The position numbers and the translations under genes are program-made. Shown piece after piece: positions 2,749-52,666 of a stretch of DNA of 64,000 nt. Below the pieces are notes generated by a model. The model was not told the origin of the DNA. It saw only the letters and a program-made list of their open reading frames with translations, and searched no databases. Location: contig NZ_JAPQNS010000002.1 of the NCBI RefSeq assembly GCF_028867935.1, forward strand, positions 124,001 through 188,000, in the 5' to 3' direction. Source of the stretch: Flavobacterium sp. SUN052 (GTDB lineage: Bacteria; Bacteroidota; Bacteroidia; Flavobacteriales; Flavobacteriaceae). How positions within the stretch are numbered: position 1 is the stretch's first letter; every line of letters starts with the position of its first letter.

Positions 2749-5580
2749 ATGCGTTATTCCCCATTTTCAATGCTGGCTGTGCTACTAGTCAGTTTGAGCA
2801 CAGTAATGGCCCAGTCGATTCCGTCGCCAAAAGAACATTTTGGATTCAATATTGGCGACGACTATCAGCTGGCCACTTACACCCAAACGGAGGCTTACTT
2901 CAGAAAGGTAGCCGCAGCGTCTGACCGGGTCAAACTGGTAGACATTGGCCTGACCGAAGAAGGTCGTCATCAGTTGATGCTGATTGTATCGTCGCCGGAG
3001 AACCTCAAAAAGCTGGATCGGTACAAAGAGATTTCAACTAAACTGGCTCGGGCAGAAGGCCTCACCGACGATCAGGCCCGCGCTTTAGCGGAAGAAGGTA
3101 AAGCCGTTGTCTGGATTGATGGAGGCTTGCACGCAACGGAAACCGTTGGCACGATGCAGCTCATTGAAACAGTCTACCAACTGGTGAGCCGCAAAGATCC
3201 CGAAACGATGCGGATTCTGGATCAGGACGTTATTCTGCTGACGCACGCCAACCCCGATGGTCAGGAAATCGTAACAAACTGGTACATGCGGGAGCCAACA
3301 CCCAACAAACGCTCGCTGGACAACCTGCCGAAGTTATACCAGAAATACGCTGGCCACGACAACAACCGCGATTTCTTCATCATGAACATGAAGGAAACTC
3401 AGAACATCGGTCGCCAGTTGTTTGTCGAGTGGATTCCACAAATTATGTACAATCACCACCAGCGTGGCCCTGCCGGGTCTGTTCTGGCTGGTCCACCCTA
3501 CCGCGATCCGTTCAACTACGTGTTTGATCCGCTCATGGTAACGGGCATCGACGCACTTGGCGCGGCTATGATCAACCGTCTGAATGCCGAAAACAAACCG
3601 GGATTTACTCGTTTAGGTGGCTCTGTTTTCTCAACTTGGTACAACGGCGGTCTGCGTACGACCACGCACTTCCACAACATGATTGGCCTTCTGACCGAAA
3701 TCATAGGTGGCCCTACTCCTGAAGACGTTCCACTGGTTCCAAGCCGACTGATTCCCAACGGAAACACGCCTTTCCCGGTTACACCTCAGAAATGGCATTT
3801 CAAGCAATCCATCGACTACTCCATTTCGCTCAACTACGCCGTGCTGGGATATGCTGCCCGTTACCGCGATGAGCTGCTGTTTAACATCTACCGGATGGGC
3901 AAAAACTCCATTGAGCGGGGTAGTAAAGACACTTGGGCCTTATCGCCCAAGCGGATCGACGCCATCAATGATGCCTTCAAAAATGATCCAAAACGCCCTA
4001 CCTCAACCACATCAGCGGCTGGTGCAGCCCTCGCTCAATATGGTATGTTGCCACGGGGTGGTGGTATGAACCTGAAGTACTACGACACGATTATGAAAGC
4101 CCCGATCCTGCGTGACCCACGGGGATACATCATTCCGGCCGATCAGACTGACTTTTCAACCGCCGTTAAGTTCGTGAATGCGTTAATTAAAACGGGTCTC
4201 CAGATTCAGCAGGCAACTTCCGATTTCACGGTAGCGGGCAAGAAATACCCAGCCGGATCGTACGTCGTAAAAACCGATCAGGCATTCCGTCCTCATTTGC
4301 TGGATATGTTTGAGCCACAAGATCACCCCAACGATTTCCAGTATCCAGGTGGTCCTCCGGTTCGTCCATATGATGCCGCTGGCTGGACATTGGCTTACCT
4401 GATGAACGTGAAGTTTGACCGGGTACTGGATGCGTTCGACGGACCATTCAAGAAACTGCCCTATGGCCAGCTTCAATCGCCAGAGGGACATGTTACAGGC
4501 GCATCGGGCGGGGGGTATCTGCTCAGTGCTAAATCGAACAACTCGTTTATTGCCGTGAATGATCTGCTGGCGTCAGGCGTCGAAGTGTATCGCTTACCAA
4601 ACGGTGTAGGTGGCAAGTCAACCGTAGAAGCCGGAGCGTTTTTTGTACCAGCTTCAGCCAAGGCAAAGTCTATACTCGATAAGTCAGCCAAAGATCTCGG
4701 TCTGGAAATATCTGGTCTGGCCAAGCGCCCGAGCACCTCGTTGACGAAAGTTTCACCAATGCGGATTGCTATCTGGGATACGTATGGTGGCTCAATGCCG
4801 TCGGGTTGGGTGCGTTGGTTGATGGAACAATACCATTTCCCAATGAAAGTTATTTACCCATCGGACATCGACGCGGGTGATCTAAAGAAAAAATACGACG
4901 TATTGGTGTTCGTTACCCGTGCTATCCCACCCGTGAATGGCCAGGATGTTGACGCTTTCCGGGGTCTGGAACGGGAGCCGAAAGAAGAAGAAACACCAGC
5001 CGAATATAGGGCCCAGTTAACCAAAGTTACCGCTGCCAAAACCATTCCACAGATCAAAGCCTTCCTGGAAGATGGCGGTTCGGTGGTTACCATTGGCTCA
5101 AGCACCAACCTGGCGTATCACCTGAAATTGCCGGTAAAAAGTGCCCTCTCTGAAATGACAGCGAGTGGAGCTGAGCGGCCATTGCCCGGTGAGAAGTACT
5201 ATATCCCAGGCAGCGTACTTCGCGTAGGAGTCGATTCAACACAACACGCCACCTGGGGAATGCCGTCTCAAACGGATGTGTATTTCGATGCCAGCCCGGT
5301 ATTTAAACCTGCGCCCGACGCCATTGCTAAAGGCTTGATTGTTCCGCTTGCCTGGTTCGACACGGCCAAACCACTGCGTAGCGGTTGGGCGTGGGGTCAG
5401 TCGTACTTGCAGGATGGCGTAGCAGCTTTTATGGCACCCGTTGGCGCCGGTAAATTCTACGCCTTCGGCCCTGAAATCACGTTCCGTGCACAGGCACACG
5501 GCACCTTCAAACTCCTGTTCAACCAGTTGTACATGACTGGCACAAACGGCTCGCAAGGTGGGGAAGCTATGGGGAAATAA
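2749..5580 (+). CDS. Secreted M14-family zinc carboxypeptidase
   Basis: A 943-residue protein with a signal peptide (MRYSPFSMLAVLLVSLSTVMAQS). The M14 peptidase domain is at about residues 40-370: GGLHATET carries the HxxE zinc motif (His128, Glu131), ANPDGQE matches the region around the substrate-binding Asn/Arg, and LLTEIIGG is the likely catalytic-Glu segment. The remaining ~550 residues are unassigned, with a possible GAT-like fold around IAIWDTYGGSMPSGW. The family removes C-terminal residues from peptides. It lies 91 bases after the lipoprotein gene of the SusCD locus on the same strand and ends at a strong terminator, so it probably supplies or processes peptides for uptake. Confidence 0.88.
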   Translation: MRYSPFSMLAVLLVSLSTVMAQSIPSPKEHFGFNIGDDYQLATYTQTEAYFRKVAAASDRVKLVDIGLTEEGRHQLMLIVSSPENLKKLDRYKEISTKLARAEGLTDDQARALAEEGKAVVWIDGGLHATETVGTMQLIETVYQLVSRKDPETMRILDQDVILLTHANPDGQEIVTNWYMREPTPNKRSLDNLPKLYQKYAGHDNNRDFFIMNMKETQNIGRQLFVEWIPQIMYNHHQRGPAGSVLAGPPYRDPFNYVFDPLMVTGIDALGAAMINRLNAENKPGFTRLGGSVFSTWYNGGLRTTTHFHNMIGLLTEIIGGPTPEDVPLVPSRLIPNGNTPFPVTPQKWHFKQSIDYSISLNYAVLGYAARYRDELLFNIYRMGKNSIERGSKDTWALSPKRIDAINDAFKNDPKRPTSTTSAAGAALAQYGMLPRGGGMNLKYYDTIMKAPILRDPRGYIIPADQTDFSTAVKFVNALIKTGLQIQQATSDFTVAGKKYPAGSYVVKTDQAFRPHLLDMFEPQDHPNDFQYPGGPPVRPYDAAGWTLAYLMNVKFDRVLDAFDGPFKKLPYGQLQSPEGHVTGASGGGYLLSAKSNNSFIAVNDLLASGVEVYRLPNGVGGKSTVEAGAFFVPASAKAKSILDKSAKDLGLEISGLAKRPSTSLTKVSPMRIAIWDTYGGSMPSGWVRWLMEQYHFPMKVIYPSDIDAGDLKKKYDVLVFVTRAIPPVNGQDVDAFRGLEREPKEEETPAEYRAQLTKVTAAKTIPQIKAFLEDGGSVVTIGSSTNLAYHLKLPVKSALSEMTASGAERPLPGEKYYIPGSVLRVGVDSTQHATWGMPSQTDVYFDASPVFKPAPDAIAKGLIVPLAWFDTAKPLRSGWAWGQSYLQDGVAAFMAPVGAGKFYAFGPEITFRAQAHGTFKLLFNQLYMTGTNGSQGGEAMGK

Positions 5581-5612
5581 AACGCAACTAGCTTATTGAA
5601 ATCACTATTGGC

Positions 5613-5648
5613 AAAGACCACGACAGCTGTCGTGGTCTTTATTTTTTT
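5613..5648 (+). terminator. Rho-independent terminator after the M14 peptidase
   Basis: A perfect 14+14 base palindrome (5613-5640, arm AAAGACCACGACAG) is followed by ATTTTTTT. It lies 32 bases after the peptidase stop codon and closes the SusCD locus. Confidence 0.92.
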
Positions 5649-5756
5649 CTCATTTCCACTTAGTTCAAATGTCGTGCGCAAAATGTTGCCGGAATATGCG
5701 GGAAATGCGACTATTGGCGTATTATAGAATCACTTCAAAAGTCGAAAACTAACCAA

Positions 5757-6317
5757 ATGACATTTTTATACACGGCGCGAAAAGCGTTCGGCCAGGATTA
5801 TGATGAAGACGGACTGTCGTGGGAGGGTTATAGTAACTGGACAAGAACACACACTACCGAAATTGTTACGCTGGATGACTCTCTAAGCAAGAGTTTGATT
5901 GAATCCCCTGGCAACTGGGATTATGTGTACAGTCCGAATAGGTGCCTGACCACTTATTTCACAAACCTTGACTACGTTATACAGGAAGCAAAAGGGAATG
6001 ACCGATTCAATTTATTGACCATTGTCATTGAGCCAGACCATGATTGCAAAGACCTTACAATTGATGGTTTTGAATTCGTAGGATACGACTTAATGGATCA
6101 ACCTTATTTTGACATCAGTTCCCTAACCAACTGCTATGGTTTCAACGAACCTATCTTACCAAGTGACACAAACAGATTTGGTTTAATAGATGATTTTGGG
6201 AGAGCCTATGCGCTGAAAAAGCGTCTGCTGGCAACTAATCCAGATCACCCTCACGCAAACACAGCTGTGGTGGCTGTTTGGAGACATAAAACAATTGGAC
6301 GTAAAAAAGCGGAGTAA
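5757..6317 (+). CDS. Hypothetical protein, 186 aa
   Basis: A soluble, acidic protein with no signal peptide or membrane segment. It contains GFEFVGYDLMD, DISSLTNCYGF and NRFGLIDDFGRAYALKK, followed by a C-terminal HANTAVVAVWRHK. This resembles a widespread but functionally uncharacterised bacterial family in which a G-x-D-L-x-D stretch precedes a TNC-G-F stretch. It stands alone between two terminators and is more A+T-rich than its neighbours, which would fit recent acquisition. A role as an immunity-type protein is possible, but nothing in the sequence shows it. Confidence 0.7.
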   Translation: MTFLYTARKAFGQDYDEDGLSWEGYSNWTRTHTTEIVTLDDSLSKSLIESPGNWDYVYSPNRCLTTYFTNLDYVIQEAKGNDRFNLLTIVIEPDHDCKDLTIDGFEFVGYDLMDQPYFDISSLTNCYGFNEPILPSDTNRFGLIDDFGRAYALKKRLLATNPDHPHANTAVVAVWRHKTIGRKKAE

Positions 6318-6341
6318 CCAGCCACTAGCTGATTACTCCGC
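6309..6341 (-). terminator. Terminator shared by the convergent genes at 5757 and 8486
   Basis: Inverted repeat GCGGAGTAACCAGC (6309-6322) / GCTGATTACTCCGC (6328-6341), with one G-T-type mismatch and a 5-base loop. Read on the minus strand it is followed by TTTTTT, so it terminates the VWA gene. On the plus strand the stem overlaps the stop codon of the 186-residue gene. Confidence 0.8.
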
Positions 6342-6359
6342 CCTCGTTTACTGTCTCCA

Positions 6360-8486
6360 TTAATATCCTCCGAAATATTTCCGCGTGCCCCACTCAAGCG
6401 TAGCAAGTACCAGCACGACGAAGAATAACCACCGCCAGTTAATGAGCTCGCTCAACTCTTCGGTGCTGCTCAGGCGGGCTGGTATTTCACGGCTGGTGAG
6501 GTCACGAACCAGATTGGCCACGTTCTTCGTATTATAAAACTTACCGCCTGTTTGCGTGGTTAACTGGCGCAACAATCCATGGTCGGCTGTGGTGTTGAGT
6601 GCTTCCAGTTGCAGATCGCGCACGATGAACTGCCCTTCCGAAACTTCATTTTTGCCGCTCAAATTGGTAGATGCCCGGTAGCGGTAAGCTCCTTCCGGCA
6701 ATCGGCTGATCTCGAACCGGCTATTGTCGGTTGTTGGGGTATAGTTGAAGCTTCGGGTGATACCGCGCTCATCCAAGATACTCAGGTTGACTGGCTTATC
6801 GTAGATGCGCTCGTAGATGTCGTTGTAGAGTTCGGTTTCGAAAATGACTTTTTCGCCCGCCACAAACTCGTTTCGAATCGGGTAGACGCGCAGCTTCCGG
6901 CGGTCTTCCTTCACCGAAATCAACTGGATGACCTTCTGTAACATTTCATCCACAACCTCCTGCTTATCCGTCAGCGCGTACTCTTCCAGTCGCCATTGCC
7001 ATATTCCTTCACCCGCCAGTACGGCCGTTTTGCGGGGGCGGTCCGGCGAACCAGCGGTCACGTTCAGCGCTAGCAGCGGCTTTTGCGTTTGTACACTGCC
7101 TACCTGTTGCCACAGCACCACTTCACTACCCGGCATCAGCTTGAAATCGCCGTAAGGCGCTAAAAGAGGGGGTAGTTTGGTAATAATTTCCAGCCGGGCC
7201 GCGTCGAGGTTCAGTTGCTTGTACGTATCGTTATAACGAGCCGTAACTTTATCACTCTGACCCGGTTGAGCCGTAACCTGCATAACGGGGTTGATGGTAT
7301 TGAAAGGCCCCATCGACGACTGATTGCCCAATACAAACAGAATAGGCGTCGTCTTATTGTTAGCCAGTAGTAACTGTATCACATTTGCACTGGCCCCGGC
7401 GTTATCGGGAATCTGGTGCAGAATAATCAGGTCGAATTTTTTGTCGGTTGGTGGAGGGGTTTCGCTACCAATAAGCGTGCGTACATCGAGCTCGTAGTTC
7501 TGATTGCGTTCCAGTATGCTCCGAATGGCTTTCAGATCCGGGTGGGGACTGAGACCAAGCAGAAGCACTTTCTCGCGCCCATCGATCACGTCGATATAAA
7601 CATCCTGACGGTTGTTTTTGGTGCTGAACTCCCCCGCCTGCGGCACCACTTCGACCACAAAGTGTTGAACTCCTTTTTGGGTAGCCGCAGTCTGGAACGT
7701 TACCGCCCCGAATGTCTGCGATTGTCCGAACGACAGCGTCTGACGACCAACCTCACGCCCGCCCTGCCGCAATATTACCGTACCCGCCCGGCCTTGAAAA
7801 CCGTTGCTGGTCACCTCCACCTGAATCGGAAACTGGTTGCCCAGATACGCAATCCGGTTGGCAACCACGCCTTTCACGGCTATATCGCGCTTGGGAATGG
7901 TATCCCCCAAACCGACTGCATGAACCGCAAACGGGTATTGCCCAAATGTGGGTGACAAACCCTGATTGAATATGCCATCCGAAATCAGCACCACGTCGGT
8001 AAGATGGCGACCCTCATAGTCGTTGCGAATACTCGACAACAGCCCCGACAGGTTCGTTGTCCGCTGCGTGAACGGAATCTGTCCCAAATCCATATCCGTA
8101 GTGGAGTCGCCGAGGGTGCGCACCGATACATCGAGCCCTTCGTTGGCGAGTTGCTGCCGGAGTGTTTGCAAGTTGCCGAGTGTTGCCGTCAAAGCCGGAC
8201 GACCAGCCGCTGCCACCGATTCCGAGTTGTCGATGGCCAGCACGACTTTAGGCTTTTCGGTGAGGGTCCGAATGCTGCGAATCAGCGGGTTAACCAGCAG
8301 AAAACACAGCAAACTAACCGCCACAAACCGAAGGGCAGCGAGTCCATAACGGACGTTTCGATCCCAAGCAGAAACCGTGTCGGACTCCCGGTTAGGAATT
8401 GGTTGATACAAAGCAGCAGCGTATACTGCGCCTACCAGCAAACAGACCAGCACCCACCAGGGTGAGGATTGGAAGATTACGTTCAT
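6360..8486 (-). CDS. Membrane-anchored VWA-domain protein
   Basis: A 708-residue protein. Two N-terminal membrane segments (about 10-28 and 48-68) are followed by a von Willebrand factor A domain with an intact MIDAS motif (VVLAIDNSES, Asp86-Ser88-Ser90) and a second metal-loop segment VVLISDGIFNQG. The middle is beta-rich, then comes a segment similar to class-I amidotransferase-like folds (KFDLIILHQIPDN), and a final membrane helix (INWRWLFFVVLVLATLEWG) close to the C-terminus. This architecture is common in Bacteroidota near BatA/BatB-type genes, but no MoxR ATPase is adjacent here. It starts 1 base after fabG on the same strand, so the two are translationally linked. Function not established. 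Confidence 0.82.
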   Translation of the reverse strand: MNVIFQSSPWWVLVCLLVGAVYAAALYQPIPNRESDTVSAWDRNVRYGLAALRFVAVSLLCFLLVNPLIRSIRTLTEKPKVVLAIDNSESVAAAGRPALTATLGNLQTLRQQLANEGLDVSVRTLGDSTTDMDLGQIPFTQRTTNLSGLLSSIRNDYEGRHLTDVVLISDGIFNQGLSPTFGQYPFAVHAVGLGDTIPKRDIAVKGVVANRIAYLGNQFPIQVEVTSNGFQGRAGTVILRQGGREVGRQTLSFGQSQTFGAVTFQTAATQKGVQHFVVEVVPQAGEFSTKNNRQDVYIDVIDGREKVLLLGLSPHPDLKAIRSILERNQNYELDVRTLIGSETPPPTDKKFDLIILHQIPDNAGASANVIQLLLANNKTTPILFVLGNQSSMGPFNTINPVMQVTAQPGQSDKVTARYNDTYKQLNLDAARLEIITKLPPLLAPYGDFKLMPGSEVVLWQQVGSVQTQKPLLALNVTAGSPDRPRKTAVLAGEGIWQWRLEEYALTDKQEVVDEMLQKVIQLISVKEDRRKLRVYPIRNEFVAGEKVIFETELYNDIYERIYDKPVNLSILDERGITRSFNYTPTTDNSRFEISRLPEGAYRYRASTNLSGKNEVSEGQFIVRDLQLEALNTTADHGLLRQLTTQTGGKFYNTKNVANLVRDLTSREIPARLSSTEELSELINWRWLFFVVLVLATLEWGTRKYFGGY

Positions 8487-31263: not shown

Positions 31264-32019
31264 ATGATGGATAGCCAACTATATGATAAAGTCGAATCTT
31301 TACAAAACATGCTTGTGGCATTTTCGACTGATGGTCAAGCAGATGATGAGGAGTACAAACGAATTAGACGTGAGCTTATAAGCGATACAACAATCAATAG
31401 CAAACTACCTCAATTCTTAAATACAAATCGTGATTTAAAACAATTTTGGCAGTATATAAAACGGCAATATTCGACTTATCAACAAAGAAGAGAATTTCTT
31501 TGGACCACATTTGCTCCCATCTTAAAGTACATAGAAGAGTCAAATGAAAGTCCTGGAGATGCCATAGTAACCCAAACAATCGTTGATTTTAATGCAGAGT
31601 ATGTTAGTAAAGAATGGCAAAAAGCCTTGCAAAGGCGTTTCGATGATCCTGAAGCAGCAATTACTTCATCACGAAGTTTAATTGAGTCGATTTGCAAGCA
31701 TATACTTGATGAACAAGCCGTAAGCTACGACGAGAAAGCAGACTTACCTAAGCTTTATAAGAGTGCAGCGGAACTACTTAACCTATCCCCTTCTCAACAT
31801 ACTGAGCCGATTTTCAAACAGATACTAGGTGGTTGCCAGACAGTAGTTGAAGGCTTAGGTTCAATGAGAAATAAACTAAGTGATTCACACGGAAACGGGA
31901 TAACACAACCAAAACCAGCATCAAGGCATGCCAAACTTGCTGTAAATCTTGCTGGATCAATGGCCAGTTTTCTAATTCAAACTTATGCAGAGAAAAAGAA
32001 AAAACAAATATCCTTGTGA
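31264..32019 (+). CDS. Abi-C-domain (abortive infection C-terminal-like) protein
   Basis: A 251-residue soluble protein. The C-terminal half (about 135-245) fits the Abi-C pattern: SSRSLIESICKHILDE, then KLYKSAAELLNL, then GLGSMRNKLSDSHGNG, and a helix ending MASFLIQTYAEKK. The RNK-x4-HG segment is the most diagnostic piece. This domain occurs in phage-exclusion proteins and in many uncharacterised island genes; phage defence is inferred. The N-terminal half is helical and unassigned. The gene is visibly A+T-richer than clpB and lies directly before the palindrome array and transposase, both signs of acquired DNA. Start ATG 31264 (or 31267). Confidence 0.72.
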   Translation: MMDSQLYDKVESLQNMLVAFSTDGQADDEEYKRIRRELISDTTINSKLPQFLNTNRDLKQFWQYIKRQYSTYQQRREFLWTTFAPILKYIEESNESPGDAIVTQTIVDFNAEYVSKEWQKALQRRFDDPEAAITSSRSLIESICKHILDEQAVSYDEKADLPKLYKSAAELLNLSPSQHTEPIFKQILGGCQTVVEGLGSMRNKLSDSHGNGITQPKPASRHAKLAVNLAGSMASFLIQTYAEKKKKQISL

Positions 32020-32030
32020 CTTTGAACACT

Positions 32031-32195
32031 GTCGCGTTAGCAACCTAAGGTTTGTAGTAACCAATACCGGTCCGTGCGTACCCCTGTCGCGTTGGTGACC
32101 GAACAAATGGCTACCCAATAGTTCGGTCGCTAACGCGACGTAGCTATCCGTCGGGAATCAATTTTGATCTACAAACATTAGGTCGCTAACGCGAT
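32031..32195. repeat. REP-like array, unit I (four palindromic cores)
   Basis: Cores at 32031-32044 and 32086-32099 (forward; consensus GTCGCGTTAGCGAC, both slightly degenerate), then 32126-32139 and 32182-32195 (inverted). Each core is a hairpin with stem GTCGC/GCGAC and loop GTTA. The outer cores carry the flank GTTTGTAG (A) or its complement (A'), and the inner pair carries GTTCGG-type flanks (B, B'). Start-to-start distances are 55, 40 and 56 bases. Confidence 0.9.
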
Positions 32196-32256
32196 GTTGA
32201 TTGATGGACTACGGATATCTTGTCGTCCCTATTTTGAATTTGCCTCCTTGATATTC

Positions 32257-32422
32257 GTCGCGTTAGCGACCTAAGGTTTGTAGCAATAAACCGTTTCACC
32301 TCGCACAAACCTCGTCGCGTTAGCGACCTAACCGTTGATTGGCCTTTTGTTCGGTCGCTAAAGCGACGTAGCTATCCGTGGGTAACTTTTTGGTGCAACA
32401 AACATTGGGTCGCTAAAGCGAC
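32257..32422. repeat. REP-like array, unit II
   Basis: Same A-B-B'-A' layout as unit I. Forward cores at 32257-32270 and 32314-32327; inverted cores at 32354-32367 and 32409-32422, the latter two reading GTCGCTAAAGCGAC. Start-to-start distances are 57, 40 and 55 bases. The two inverted cores share the same substitution, suggesting paired evolution or conversion within the unit. Confidence 0.9.
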
Positions 32423-32492
32423 GGAATGCCGAGACCCTCCAATTTCTTAACTACAGATTAGATTACCCTTTCATAATACCGCTTTTCTCTTC

Positions 32493-32659
32493 GTCGCTTA
32501 GCGACCAAATGTTTGTAGAAATTGATTGTTCCTTCCATATATGCGCCCGTCGCGTTAGCGACCAAGCCATTAGGCGGACTTTTGTTCGGTCGCTAACGCG
32601 ACGGAAAATCAACGAGGGCGCATGTGGGGTGGCTACAAACATTTGGTCGCTAACGCGAC
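32493..32659. repeat. REP-like array, unit III
   Basis: Forward cores at 32493-32505 (one base shorter) and 32549-32562; inverted cores at 32589-32602 and 32646-32659. Distances 56, 40 and 57 bases. The outer arms plus the GTTTGTAG flank form a nearly perfect 28-base inverted repeat, so the whole unit can fold as a nested hairpin. Confidence 0.9.
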
Positions 32660-32726
32660 GAAGGGCGAAAACTTCTACTTTTTTAGCTCCTATCTCACTC
32701 AAACTTTTGAACTTGCCTGCTTCCAA

Positions 32727-32780
32727 TTCGTCTTGCTAGCTAGGCACTGAACAAGGTTTAGGGTTTATAGAAATCAATCC
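32727..32780. repeat. Degenerate fourth A copy reaching into the transposase stop
   Basis: Begins at CGTCTTGCTAGCTAGGC, then GTTTATAGAAATCAATCC, which parallels the A flank GTTTGTAGAAATTGATTG of unit III. Its core would start near 32730, 237 bases after unit III, which keeps the array period (226 and 236). The transposase stop codon (32774-32776) lies inside this flank. Confidence 0.65.
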
Positions 32781-33238
32781 TCAACCGGTCTGAAAACATA
32801 CCGTTCATCATGGGGAACGTCGAACTTCTTTAGAAAGAGGTTGTACTCTTCTAGAAACGTCCGTTTACGATGGTGTTCTTCTTGGTTCTGAATGTATTTT
32901 ACGACCTCGTCAATCTGGGAATGACCGTATGAGAACGCACCATAACCACTTTGCCATTCGAAATGACCACGCACCAATTTCTTCTCGTTGATCCACTTTG
33001 ACGAATCCATTTTCAAATATTGCATCATTTCTGAAATCGACTGTTTAGGGTTCAAACCGATAAAGGCATGTACATGATCGGGCATTCCATTGATAATGAT
33101 TAATTTATGACCCTGCTGCTGCACGATGCCTGTCATGTAGCGATACAGATCTTCTTTCCACTCCGCACGGATGAGACCATACCGATGCTTGACCGCGAAA
33201 ACAGTCTGAATATAAATTTGAGTGTATGTGTTGGCCAT
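32774..33238 (-). CDS. REP-associated tyrosine transposase (IS200-like, Y1 HUH)
   Basis: A 154-residue protein started at ATG 33238 (MANTYTQIYIQTVFAVK), a start shared by many Bacteroidota relatives; an upstream in-frame ATG would add 23 unrelated residues. The HUH motif is His55-Val-His57 in MPDHVHAFIG and the likely catalytic Tyr is Y115 in VVKYIQNQEEHH. Such enzymes cut and rejoin single-stranded DNA at hairpins. RAYTs of this size act on REP palindromes and are single-copy, unlike IS200 elements with their own ends. The adjacent nested-palindrome array supports a RAYT role. Divergent from the Thg1-like gene with a 43-base gap. Confidence 0.88.
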   Translation of the reverse strand: MANTYTQIYIQTVFAVKHRYGLIRAEWKEDLYRYMTGIVQQQGHKLIIINGMPDHVHAFIGLNPKQSISEMMQYLKMDSSKWINEKKLVRGHFEWQSGYGAFSYGHSQIDEVVKYIQNQEEHHRKRTFLEEYNLFLKKFDVPHDERYVFRPVED

Positions 33239-33281
33239 CGGGCGTTTGATTTTGTGCAACTTAGCCAAAATCTTTTTGCTC

Positions 33282-34052
33282 ATGACTTTCGACGATCTCG
33301 ACCGCAAACTTCGCCAATTTGAAACAGCCCACGACCGCGCCGTACTTCCCGAAACCTATATTGTCGCTCGTATCGACGGACGAAGCTTTACGCGGTTAAC
33401 TAAAGAGACCGTACGTTTCGAAGCCCCTTTCGACATTCGGTTTCGTGACATAATGGTTGAGACAGTTCGCCACTTGATGACATGCGGCTTTACCATTCCA
33501 TATGGCTACACTCAAAGCGATGAGATTTCGTTGCTTTTTGATCTTGATGAGCAATCATTCGGGCGGAAGACCCGAAAGCTGATCTCGGTGCTGGCAGGGG
33601 AAGCCAGCGCGAAGTTTTCGGTATTGCTAGGGCAAGTTGGCGCATTTGATTGTCGGCTGAGCGAGTTTCCAAATGTGCCTTTGGTGGTCGACTATTTCCG
33701 TTGGCGGCAAGAAGATGCTCATAGAAATGCCCTAAATGCACACTGTTACTGGCAGCTCAGGCAGCAAGGGCAAACGGTTGCTCAAGCCACCCGAAAAATA
33801 GAGGGCATGCGTGTTTCAGCCAAAAACGAGTTGCTTTTTCAAATGGGTATCAATTTTAACAACCTCCCAGCTTGGCAAAAACGAGGAGTTGGTGTAACGT
33901 GGCAGGAAGTTAAAAAAGATGGATTTAATCCAATCACTGACCAAACTGTTCAGACTATGAGACGGCAGTTGGTCAACAACTATGAATTACCACTTCATGA
34001 AATCTACAGCCAATTTATTGTGGGGATAGCAACTCGCCAACTTCAAAGCTGA
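33282..34052 (+). CDS. Thg1-family tRNA guanylyltransferase-like protein
   Basis: A 256-residue protein started at ATG 33282 (MTFDDLDRKLRQFE); longer in-frame starts would run into the transposase gene. It has ARIDGRSFTRLT (Asp32) and YGYTQSDEISLLF (Asp80, Glu81), the metal-binding carboxylates of Thg1, and NFNNLPAWQKRG, similar to the HINNLYN motif. Thg1 and its bacterial relatives add nucleotides to the 5' end of tRNA in the 3'-to-5' direction, either G-1 on tRNA-His or repair of truncated ends. Which one applies cannot be told here. Its 3' end overlaps the convergent CdaR-like gene by 38 bases. Confidence 0.9.
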   Translation: MTFDDLDRKLRQFETAHDRAVLPETYIVARIDGRSFTRLTKETVRFEAPFDIRFRDIMVETVRHLMTCGFTIPYGYTQSDEISLLFDLDEQSFGRKTRKLISVLAGEASAKFSVLLGQVGAFDCRLSEFPNVPLVVDYFRWRQEDAHRNALNAHCYWQLRQQGQTVAQATRKIEGMRVSAKNELLFQMGINFNNLPAWQKRGVGVTWQEVKKDGFNPITDQTVQTMRRQLVNNYELPLHEIYSQFIVGIATRQLQS

Positions 34053-52418: not shown

Positions 52419-52485
52419 ATTAGGGGTAATTGATTATTGGGTAAATTGGTTATTGGTTATTGGGTAAGTTGGTAATTCGTTGGCT

Positions 52486-52632
52486 AGCCCCGGCGGGGCG
52501 ACATGTCAATAGAAACGATTAGCGTATGCTTTTCGCTGAAGCCCCGGCGGGGCGGTATGTAAACGGCAGCCCCGAACATATCGCCCCGCCGGGGCTTTGC
52601 TCATTCCTAAATCGGTTTTTTCTATTGACATG
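52486..52632. repeat. Cluster of GCCCCGGCGGGGC palindromes and a longer inverted repeat
   Basis: Three palindromic copies: AGCCCCGGCGGGGCG at 52486-52500 and 52540-52554, and its inverse at 52582-52596. In addition CATGTCAATAGAA (52502-52514) pairs with TTCTATTGACATG (52620-52632), 13 exact bases, enclosing the other copies. The G+C-rich copies contrast with the A+T-rich flanks. Located between the oxidoreductase and cupin genes; may double as a terminator but has no T-run. Confidence 0.8.
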
Positions 52633-52666
52633 ACGCCCTTACAGGGCTATTGACCAGTGCTAGACC

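Follow-up and report, generated by a model that had tools for sequence, protein, structure and literature searches.

The twelve hairpins at 32031-32659 of the window (the whole stretch of 64,000 nucleotides that was analysed) probably form a local cluster of non-autonomous REPIN-like elements belonging to the adjacent single-copy gene for a Y1 HUH enzyme, and we put the probability of this reading at about 0.7. The system is of the known REP/RAYT kind; what is new is that it is built on another enzyme branch, the best reading being a REPIN-like system on a separate, IS200-derived enzyme. An earlier note on this DNA had proposed a BIME-like structure of an adjacent RAYT; a Y1 HUH gene with its own REPIN- or BIME-like hairpin repeats is present, but the enzyme is not a RAYT. 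At the level of sequence, our comparisons established an element with a fixed geometry, its clustering at one enzyme group, the dispersal of whole units and, in two relatives, apparently recent tandem copies.

The array consists of cores of 13-14 nt grouped as three A-B-B'-A' units (Table 1), with start-to-start spacings of the cores of 55/40/56, 57/40/55 and 56/40/57 in units 1, 2 and 3, and gaps of 61 and 70 bases between the units. These positions bear out the number of cores, the grouping, the unit lengths and the gaps given in the earlier note, but its twelve copies of a 14-base core, GTCGC-GTTA-GCGAC, need correction: the 5-bp stem GTCGC is perfect in nine of the twelve cores (imperfect at 32031, 32086 and 32182), core 32493 has 13 nt, and cores 32354 and 32409 carry the loop TAAA, not TAAC. 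When up to 2 mismatches were allowed, matches to GTCGCNNNNGCGAC were barely above chance in the whole window (38 against 27.6 expected, with 6 of 100 shuffles reaching 38) and carry no weight here, but the exact matches numbered eight, all of them within the array. The 1 kb on each side of the gene contained nine hairpins with the same stem, against a maximum of two in 50 dinucleotide shuffles. Because each unit has facing A and A' elements and inner B and B', a single strand can form four small hairpins or one long nested hairpin; the nested form, already envisaged from the letters alone, was predicted for unit 2 as a single long hairpin of -47.7 kcal/mol, which none of 200 shuffles matched. 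The right arm of unit 2 is without an exact TAG and reached 23.3 bits with R1, a model built from 61 elements that include the best A element of the array itself (32255-32287). A CRISPR-like reading of the regular spacing was dropped from the sequence alone, the repeats being inverted, nested and unlike between units.

Table 1. Positions of the repeat units, single elements and the Y1 HUH gene in the window
Feature	Position	Strand	Details
Unit 1, A-B-B'-A'	32031..32195		165 bp; cores start at 32031, 32086, 32126, 32182; outer arms both match model R1
Unit 2, A-B-B'-A'	32257..32422		166 bp; cores start at 32257, 32314, 32354, 32409; predicted nested fold, z -7.8
Unit 3, A-B-B'-A'	32493..32659		167 bp; cores start at 32493, 32549, 32589, 32646
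A element (hairpin, 10 nt, TAG), best example in the array	32255..32287	+	R1 38.1 bits, E 4.8e-8
A' element, facing the + elements	32629..32661	-	R1 30.7 bits, E 4.8e-6
Possible degenerate A-like element between array and gene	32728..32772 (about)	+	low confidence; by eye, CGTCTTGCTAGC...GTTTATAGAAAT
Y1 HUH gene, TnpAY1 subclass 1.2 type	32774..33238	-	PF01797 E 2.3e-29; HUH, WQ, Y---Q--HH
Second A-B-B'-A' unit, GCCCC-GGC-GGGGC, intergenic	52487..52647		161 bp; tail CAATAGAAA; predicted fold z -9.7; matches R1

The start of the Y1 gene was set at the methionine common to the aligned relatives, the longer open reading frame extending to 33307. The earlier note had taken this gene for a RAYT; the enzyme belongs instead to the IS200 side of the Y1 HUH proteins, bears the TnpAY1 subclass 1.2 signature and is no RAYT in the strict sense. 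It carries Y---Q--HH, unlike class 2 RAYTs with their Y---NP, and against NCBIfam it passed the IS200 model (76.9 bits, cut-off 55) and missed the REP-transposase model, REP_Tyr_transpos (31.3 bits, cut-off 80). HUH, WQ and the Y, Q, H and H of Y---Q--HH were invariant in all 23 aligned proteins, and a pattern search found DHuH with Y---Q--HH in the window protein and at 69 of the 80 other loci compared below (70/81), the remaining 11 being variants or broken frames. Sequence matches in the PDB were transposases including ISDra2 and IS608 (6 distinct sequences with the single protein; 8 distinct transposase sequences with the alignment of 23 relatives). A predicted model of the protein (mean pLDDT 88.3) ranked ISDra2, IS608 and other IS200-type transposase chains at 1-29 and the REP-associated, E. 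coli-type RAYT structure 4er8 at 30 (E 5.2e-6), with nothing else below 0.001. The gene occurs once in its own genome, plus one 31% relative, and near-identical copies at unrelated sites, as expected of an IS200/IS605 insertion sequence, were not found in that genome. The gene resembles RAYTs in behaving as a domesticated resident of its genome, yet it comes from the IS200 side of the family. As to its own relatives, the best are 63% identical in the genomes listed as of the same genus as the window's and 84% in the family of Fibrella forsythiae, and the kinship assigned to the window's genome may be wrong.

Passages of Quentin et al. 2018 (PMC6006769) give Y---Q--HH as the signature of TnpAY1 subclass 1.2, and the window enzyme shares with this subclass Y---Q--HH, WQ, DHuH, the low genomic copy number and the occurrence in Bacteroidota. 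The same passages describe the subclass as generally without the typical IS200 ends, and Table 1 of that paper says 'no' under REP. A search of the openly licensed PMC literature found no paper that links subclass 1.2 to repeats; the passages of PMC11194056 name RayT genes in Chryseobacterium and leave repeats unmentioned. In contrast to the published 'no', a conserved element, composed of a 5-bp hairpin, exactly 10 nt and TAGNA, was present in the flanks of 59 of 81 Y1 loci, namely the window and the 80 best of at least 556 confirmed stretches (581 candidates from a profile search of genome contigs). An enzyme group reported to be repeat-less therefore probably has a repeat partner after all, although the 22 loci that lack the element at exactly 10 nt count against the REPIN-like reading.

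The consensus of 163 unique elements from these 59 loci is RTCCC-GTTA-GGGAY, two free bases and AATATNGGTAGAAA. Hairpins followed by TAG[ACT]A were sharply concentrated at a distance of 10 nt, which held for 169 of the 252 near the gene and for 8 of the 32 elsewhere. When tails were picked by their sequence with no hairpin required, 174 lay within 1.5 kb of the gene, 17 farther away and one inside the Y1 gene, that is, 0.79 per kb near the gene and 0.05 per kb farther out; because the tail pattern had been derived from these very loci, this enrichment is no independent test, whereas the offset control and the variety of stems are independent. A perfect 5-bp hairpin stood exactly 10 nt before TAG in 128 of the 174 near-gene tails and in at most two at any other offset from 4 to 16, and the near-gene elements comprised 18 stem sequences, which amounts to covariation. 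In the unit, this element is the outer arm A, and B is the hairpin without TAG. As the geometry across the loci indicates, the defining element is the hairpin with 10 nt and TAGNA, not the core alone by which the repeat had been defined earlier. Conservation in the 30 bases 5' of the hairpin was at most 0.26 bits per position. Arrays of at least three same-stem hairpins were found within 1 kb of the gene at 44 of the 81 loci, compared with one of 81 in flanks at 2-4 kb, and shuffles (50 for each of the 81 loci) produced none. The nearest upstream element pointed to the gene in 38 of 42 cases (P = 6e-8) and the nearest downstream element in 34 of 49 (P = 0.009). Rfam gave no match at the gathering thresholds.

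The stem also tracks the enzyme. Enzymes of pairs with the same stem were 65% identical against 61% for the others, a difference reached in none of 2000 permutations (uncorrected for kinship), and nearest neighbours by enzyme shared their stem in 33 of 57 cases. Among 16 orthologues of 71-84% identity (L245-L260, where L245, L258 and L260 coincide with L013, L014 and L015), 14 had GTCGC, one GCCGC and one GTGCC, while the same scan of 14 more distant loci (L261-L274) yielded one GTCGC, seven other stems and six loci without a convincing stem.

Units were also found away from the gene in the window's genome. Two complete GTCGC units lie at C36:235256-235413 and C7:7673-7823 (E 6.5e-7 and 1.2e-6 in the DNA search). 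Since the GTCGC pattern with one mismatch is at chance level (12 matches forwards, 14 read backwards) and single matches mean little, these two units rest on their four cores in register together with the DNA search. The idea that the cores occur only here, which arose when the core with the 4-nt loop matched the array only (10/10 matches), was overturned by these two units, which have 3-nt loops. Possible decayed GTCGC pieces lie at C13:46361 and C3:196053. The C7 unit is intergenic, as is the C36 unit provided that the following gene begins at its ATG (a mechanical open reading frame with a TTG start overlaps it); the C7 gene pair was kept in 3 of 10 relatives' loci inspected, all three without the unit. 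The GTCGC family is nevertheless small, with five full units of which three are at the gene, and this size weighs against the REPIN-like reading. A second family with the core GCCCC-GGC-GGGGC occupies seven places in the genome, six of them beyond the window at E 0.001 or better and some partial; its unit in the window has facing R1 matches at 52485-52516 (+, E 0.0009) and 52618-52649 (-, E 0.001). In neither family are the flanks related from copy to copy (mean identity 0.31 for both).

Whole A-B-B'-A' units are likewise dispersed in Flavobacterium, Aquiflexum and genomes of the family of Fibrella, so that the four-core arrangement, first described for the window only, recurs in relatives. 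Among the fetched loci, a strict scan gave facing units of 146-153 bp in Aquiflexum (2 of 11 loci) and Flavobacterium (4 of 7), units of 184 and 223 bp in G270 (2 of 4 loci), and none in 4 loci of G254 or 12 of G267. The pairs of G267 are back to back, and one copy, ordered by eye as B-A'-A-B', corresponds to the same repeat in a shifted frame. Where R1 guided the choice of places, genome G622 had facing units in 14 of 15 cases and genome G621 in 5 of 5, with lengths of 152-154 bp; all 19 had an inner inverted repeat of at least 21 bases, where none of 380 shuffles reached 11. Altogether 41 facing A..A' units, some overlapping, came from 30 sources (123 loci and the window scanned), with lengths near 114-122 bp, 141-173 bp and longer; 36 of the 41 had an inner inverted repeat of at least 8, a figure for which the set has no shuffle control. 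R1 matched in 20 of 23 genomes searched, which is not an independent result as many training elements came from those loci.

The co-occurrence of repeats and enzyme, which the earlier note had put forward as a check, was surveyed in 222 genomes of the Fibrella forsythiae family (that of G250, the genome of L015), with up to 32 candidates scored per genome. The enzyme was found in 120 genomes (E 1e-35) and R1 in 76 (E 0.001). R1 matches were present in 61 of the 120 genomes with the enzyme and 15 of the 102 without it (odds ratio 6.0; 3.4, P = 3e-4, leaving out 38 small genomes, G468-G505). The link is clear but not strict: the 59 enzyme genomes without an R1 match and the 15 genomes with R1 only both count against the REPIN-like reading. 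In another draw of 30 loci, R1 at E 0.05 matched 9 of 24 that bear the signature and 1 of 6 that do not; the more distant signature-bearing loci of this draw (L109-L118) gave no match, and this too counts against the REPIN-like reading.

The behaviour of the ends bears on whether the units could be conventional MITEs with terminal inverted repeats, mobilised by a DDE transposase, with the Y1 gene as a mere neighbour; we regard this as improbable. Homology ends near the outer hairpins and not at TAG, which lies inside the unit, and this counts against the REPIN-like reading. The units of G621 and G622 sit in the middle of dispersed elements of 245-261 bp in which inverted repeats are layered and which have terminal inverted repeats of their own. 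A 20-bp terminal repeat forms 22 facing pairs, 7 of them in G621 and 15 in G622 (for example L291 and L278), and shorter pairs too close together to enclose a unit are absent; another enzyme might therefore move the units. Moreover, the Flavobacterium copies L135-L137 share, by eye, a further inverted repeat of about 15 bp beyond the unit, and some Aquiflexum copies share longer flanks (L124/L125, L125/L128 and L125/L129), which again speaks against the REPIN-like reading. A palindrome test outside the G621 and G622 elements gave P = 0.016, a value to which we attach no weight. However, no target-site duplication was seen in the 18 G621 and G622 copies examined (L289, with a poor repeat, was left out), and its absence is expected for Y1 but not for most DDE enzymes. 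Beyond the unit, moreover, the sequences show no relationship among the copies of the window's genome or among some of those of Aquiflexum (identity at chance just outside the hairpin, 9 ends and 34 pairs compared), the element clusters at the Y1 gene, and the stem follows the Y1 sequence. As a separate observation, G000 has an exact copy of the G621/G622 terminal repeat at C6:92337 and one with 2 mismatches at C33:328882, about 1.7 kb from a second, distant Y1 homologue (31%) at G000:C33:330618-331010.

A further alternative, to which we give slightly less weight still, is that slippage and hairpin-driven tandem duplication made the array, which would be kept as a terminator, an mRNA-stabilising or a chromosome-structuring element while the enzyme is irrelevant today. 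Tandem arrays that are perfect or nearly so agree with it: L271 has tandem copies with a period of 201 bp and 100% identity, and L051 has three tandem copies of gene and array at 3500-6400, with a period of 916 bp and 99.8% identity. These copies are recent, although they could be a feature of the assembly. Roles of this sort are hypothesised for REPs in passages of PMC3733652. Slippage does not account, however, for complete units at unrelated places, for the constant 10 nt between hairpin and TAG, for the way in which the elements point to the gene or for the tie between stem and enzyme. It is still less credible that the array is a decayed IS200/IS605 insertion sequence whose ends multiplied locally. 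Among solved structures, TnpA of ISDra2 and of IS608 comes nearest to the protein and its predicted fold, but the gene is single-copy and near clpB in five other distinct loci, the L051 copies are confined to one site, and the subclass lacks typical terminal IS200 features in general according to passages of PMC6006769.

The clpB neighbourhood is seen in the window and in 7 of 50 loci searched, which correspond to five distinct places (L013 = L245, L014 = L258, L253, L259 and L261). At L013 the array has the order A A A A B B' A', against three full units in the window, and since the arrays differ at the same clpB place, the place is old and the array turns over. Between clpB and the array, the window has a gene with an abortive-infection C-terminal domain at 31264-32019 (+; PADLOC AbiJ, E 4.8e-24); the corresponding place in L013 has a different gene with a TIR-effector match at 4860-5624 (-; E 7.5e-8), and in L014 the array reaches clpB with no defence-like gene between. 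The interval is possibly a landing site for defence genes. On the other side, a gene for a Thg1-like tRNA-His guanylyltransferase at 33279-34052 (+) lies head to head with the Y1 gene.

Compared with known systems, the REPIN-like reading fits RAYT/TnpAREP systems (REPtrons) in that a low-copy Y1 HUH gene stands by inverted hairpin repeats that are also scattered in the genome, although with few copies in the window's genome, and in that the palindromes are paired and nested as in REPs, BIMEs and REPINs. As in REPINs, two inverted hairpin repeats combine into one long hairpin and copies are dispersed, mobilisation by the enzyme being presumed. Passages of PMC8266576 describe Marinomonas REPMb with a similar 5-bp stem and 4-nt loop. 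Unlike RAYT REPs, which have GTAG (GT[AG]G) at or near the 5' foot, the motif here is TAGNA, 10 nt away on the 3' side, and many units have four cores of which only the outer two are tagged. TIRYT genes and TIRtrons, according to passages of PMC3733652, are similar in that Y1 genes are flanked by inverted repeats that form families, with REP dimers inside longer palindromes; they differ in their enzyme groups (20 of 26 in subclass 2.1 in passages of PMC6006769) and repeat consensus. IS200/IS605 elements such as IS608 and ISDra2 resemble the present case in enzyme sequence, predicted fold and hairpins with a short motif nearby. In IS608, a guide 5' of the hairpin chooses the cleavage site (passages of PMC5934647), whereas conservation is very low there in our loci; because the 5' side is hardly conserved, recognition must differ here.

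Each unit comprises two facing outer A elements and inner B and B' without TAG. In the mechanism that we propose, the enzyme would bind the hairpin while the DNA is single-stranded, the TAG motif at its distance of 10 nt may serve recognition or cleavage, and cutting and rejoining by the enzyme would move and multiply the units, with tandem arrays forming where units land or slip beside the enzyme gene. On balance, we lean towards the more general view that subclass 1.2 represents a Y1 enzyme which was domesticated separately and has populations of nested four-hairpin repeats to itself, recognised through the hairpin and TAGNA 10 nt downstream. If this is true, REPIN-like systems would have arisen both on the IS200 side and in class 2 and would be widespread in Bacteroidota, and an orphan branch of Y1 HUH enzymes would gain a substrate and a likely role. 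Bacteroidota genomes would gain a repeat type with a sharply defined geometry, and stem and enzyme, which vary in step across many genera, would offer a test of joint change between domesticated single-strand transposases and their repeats.
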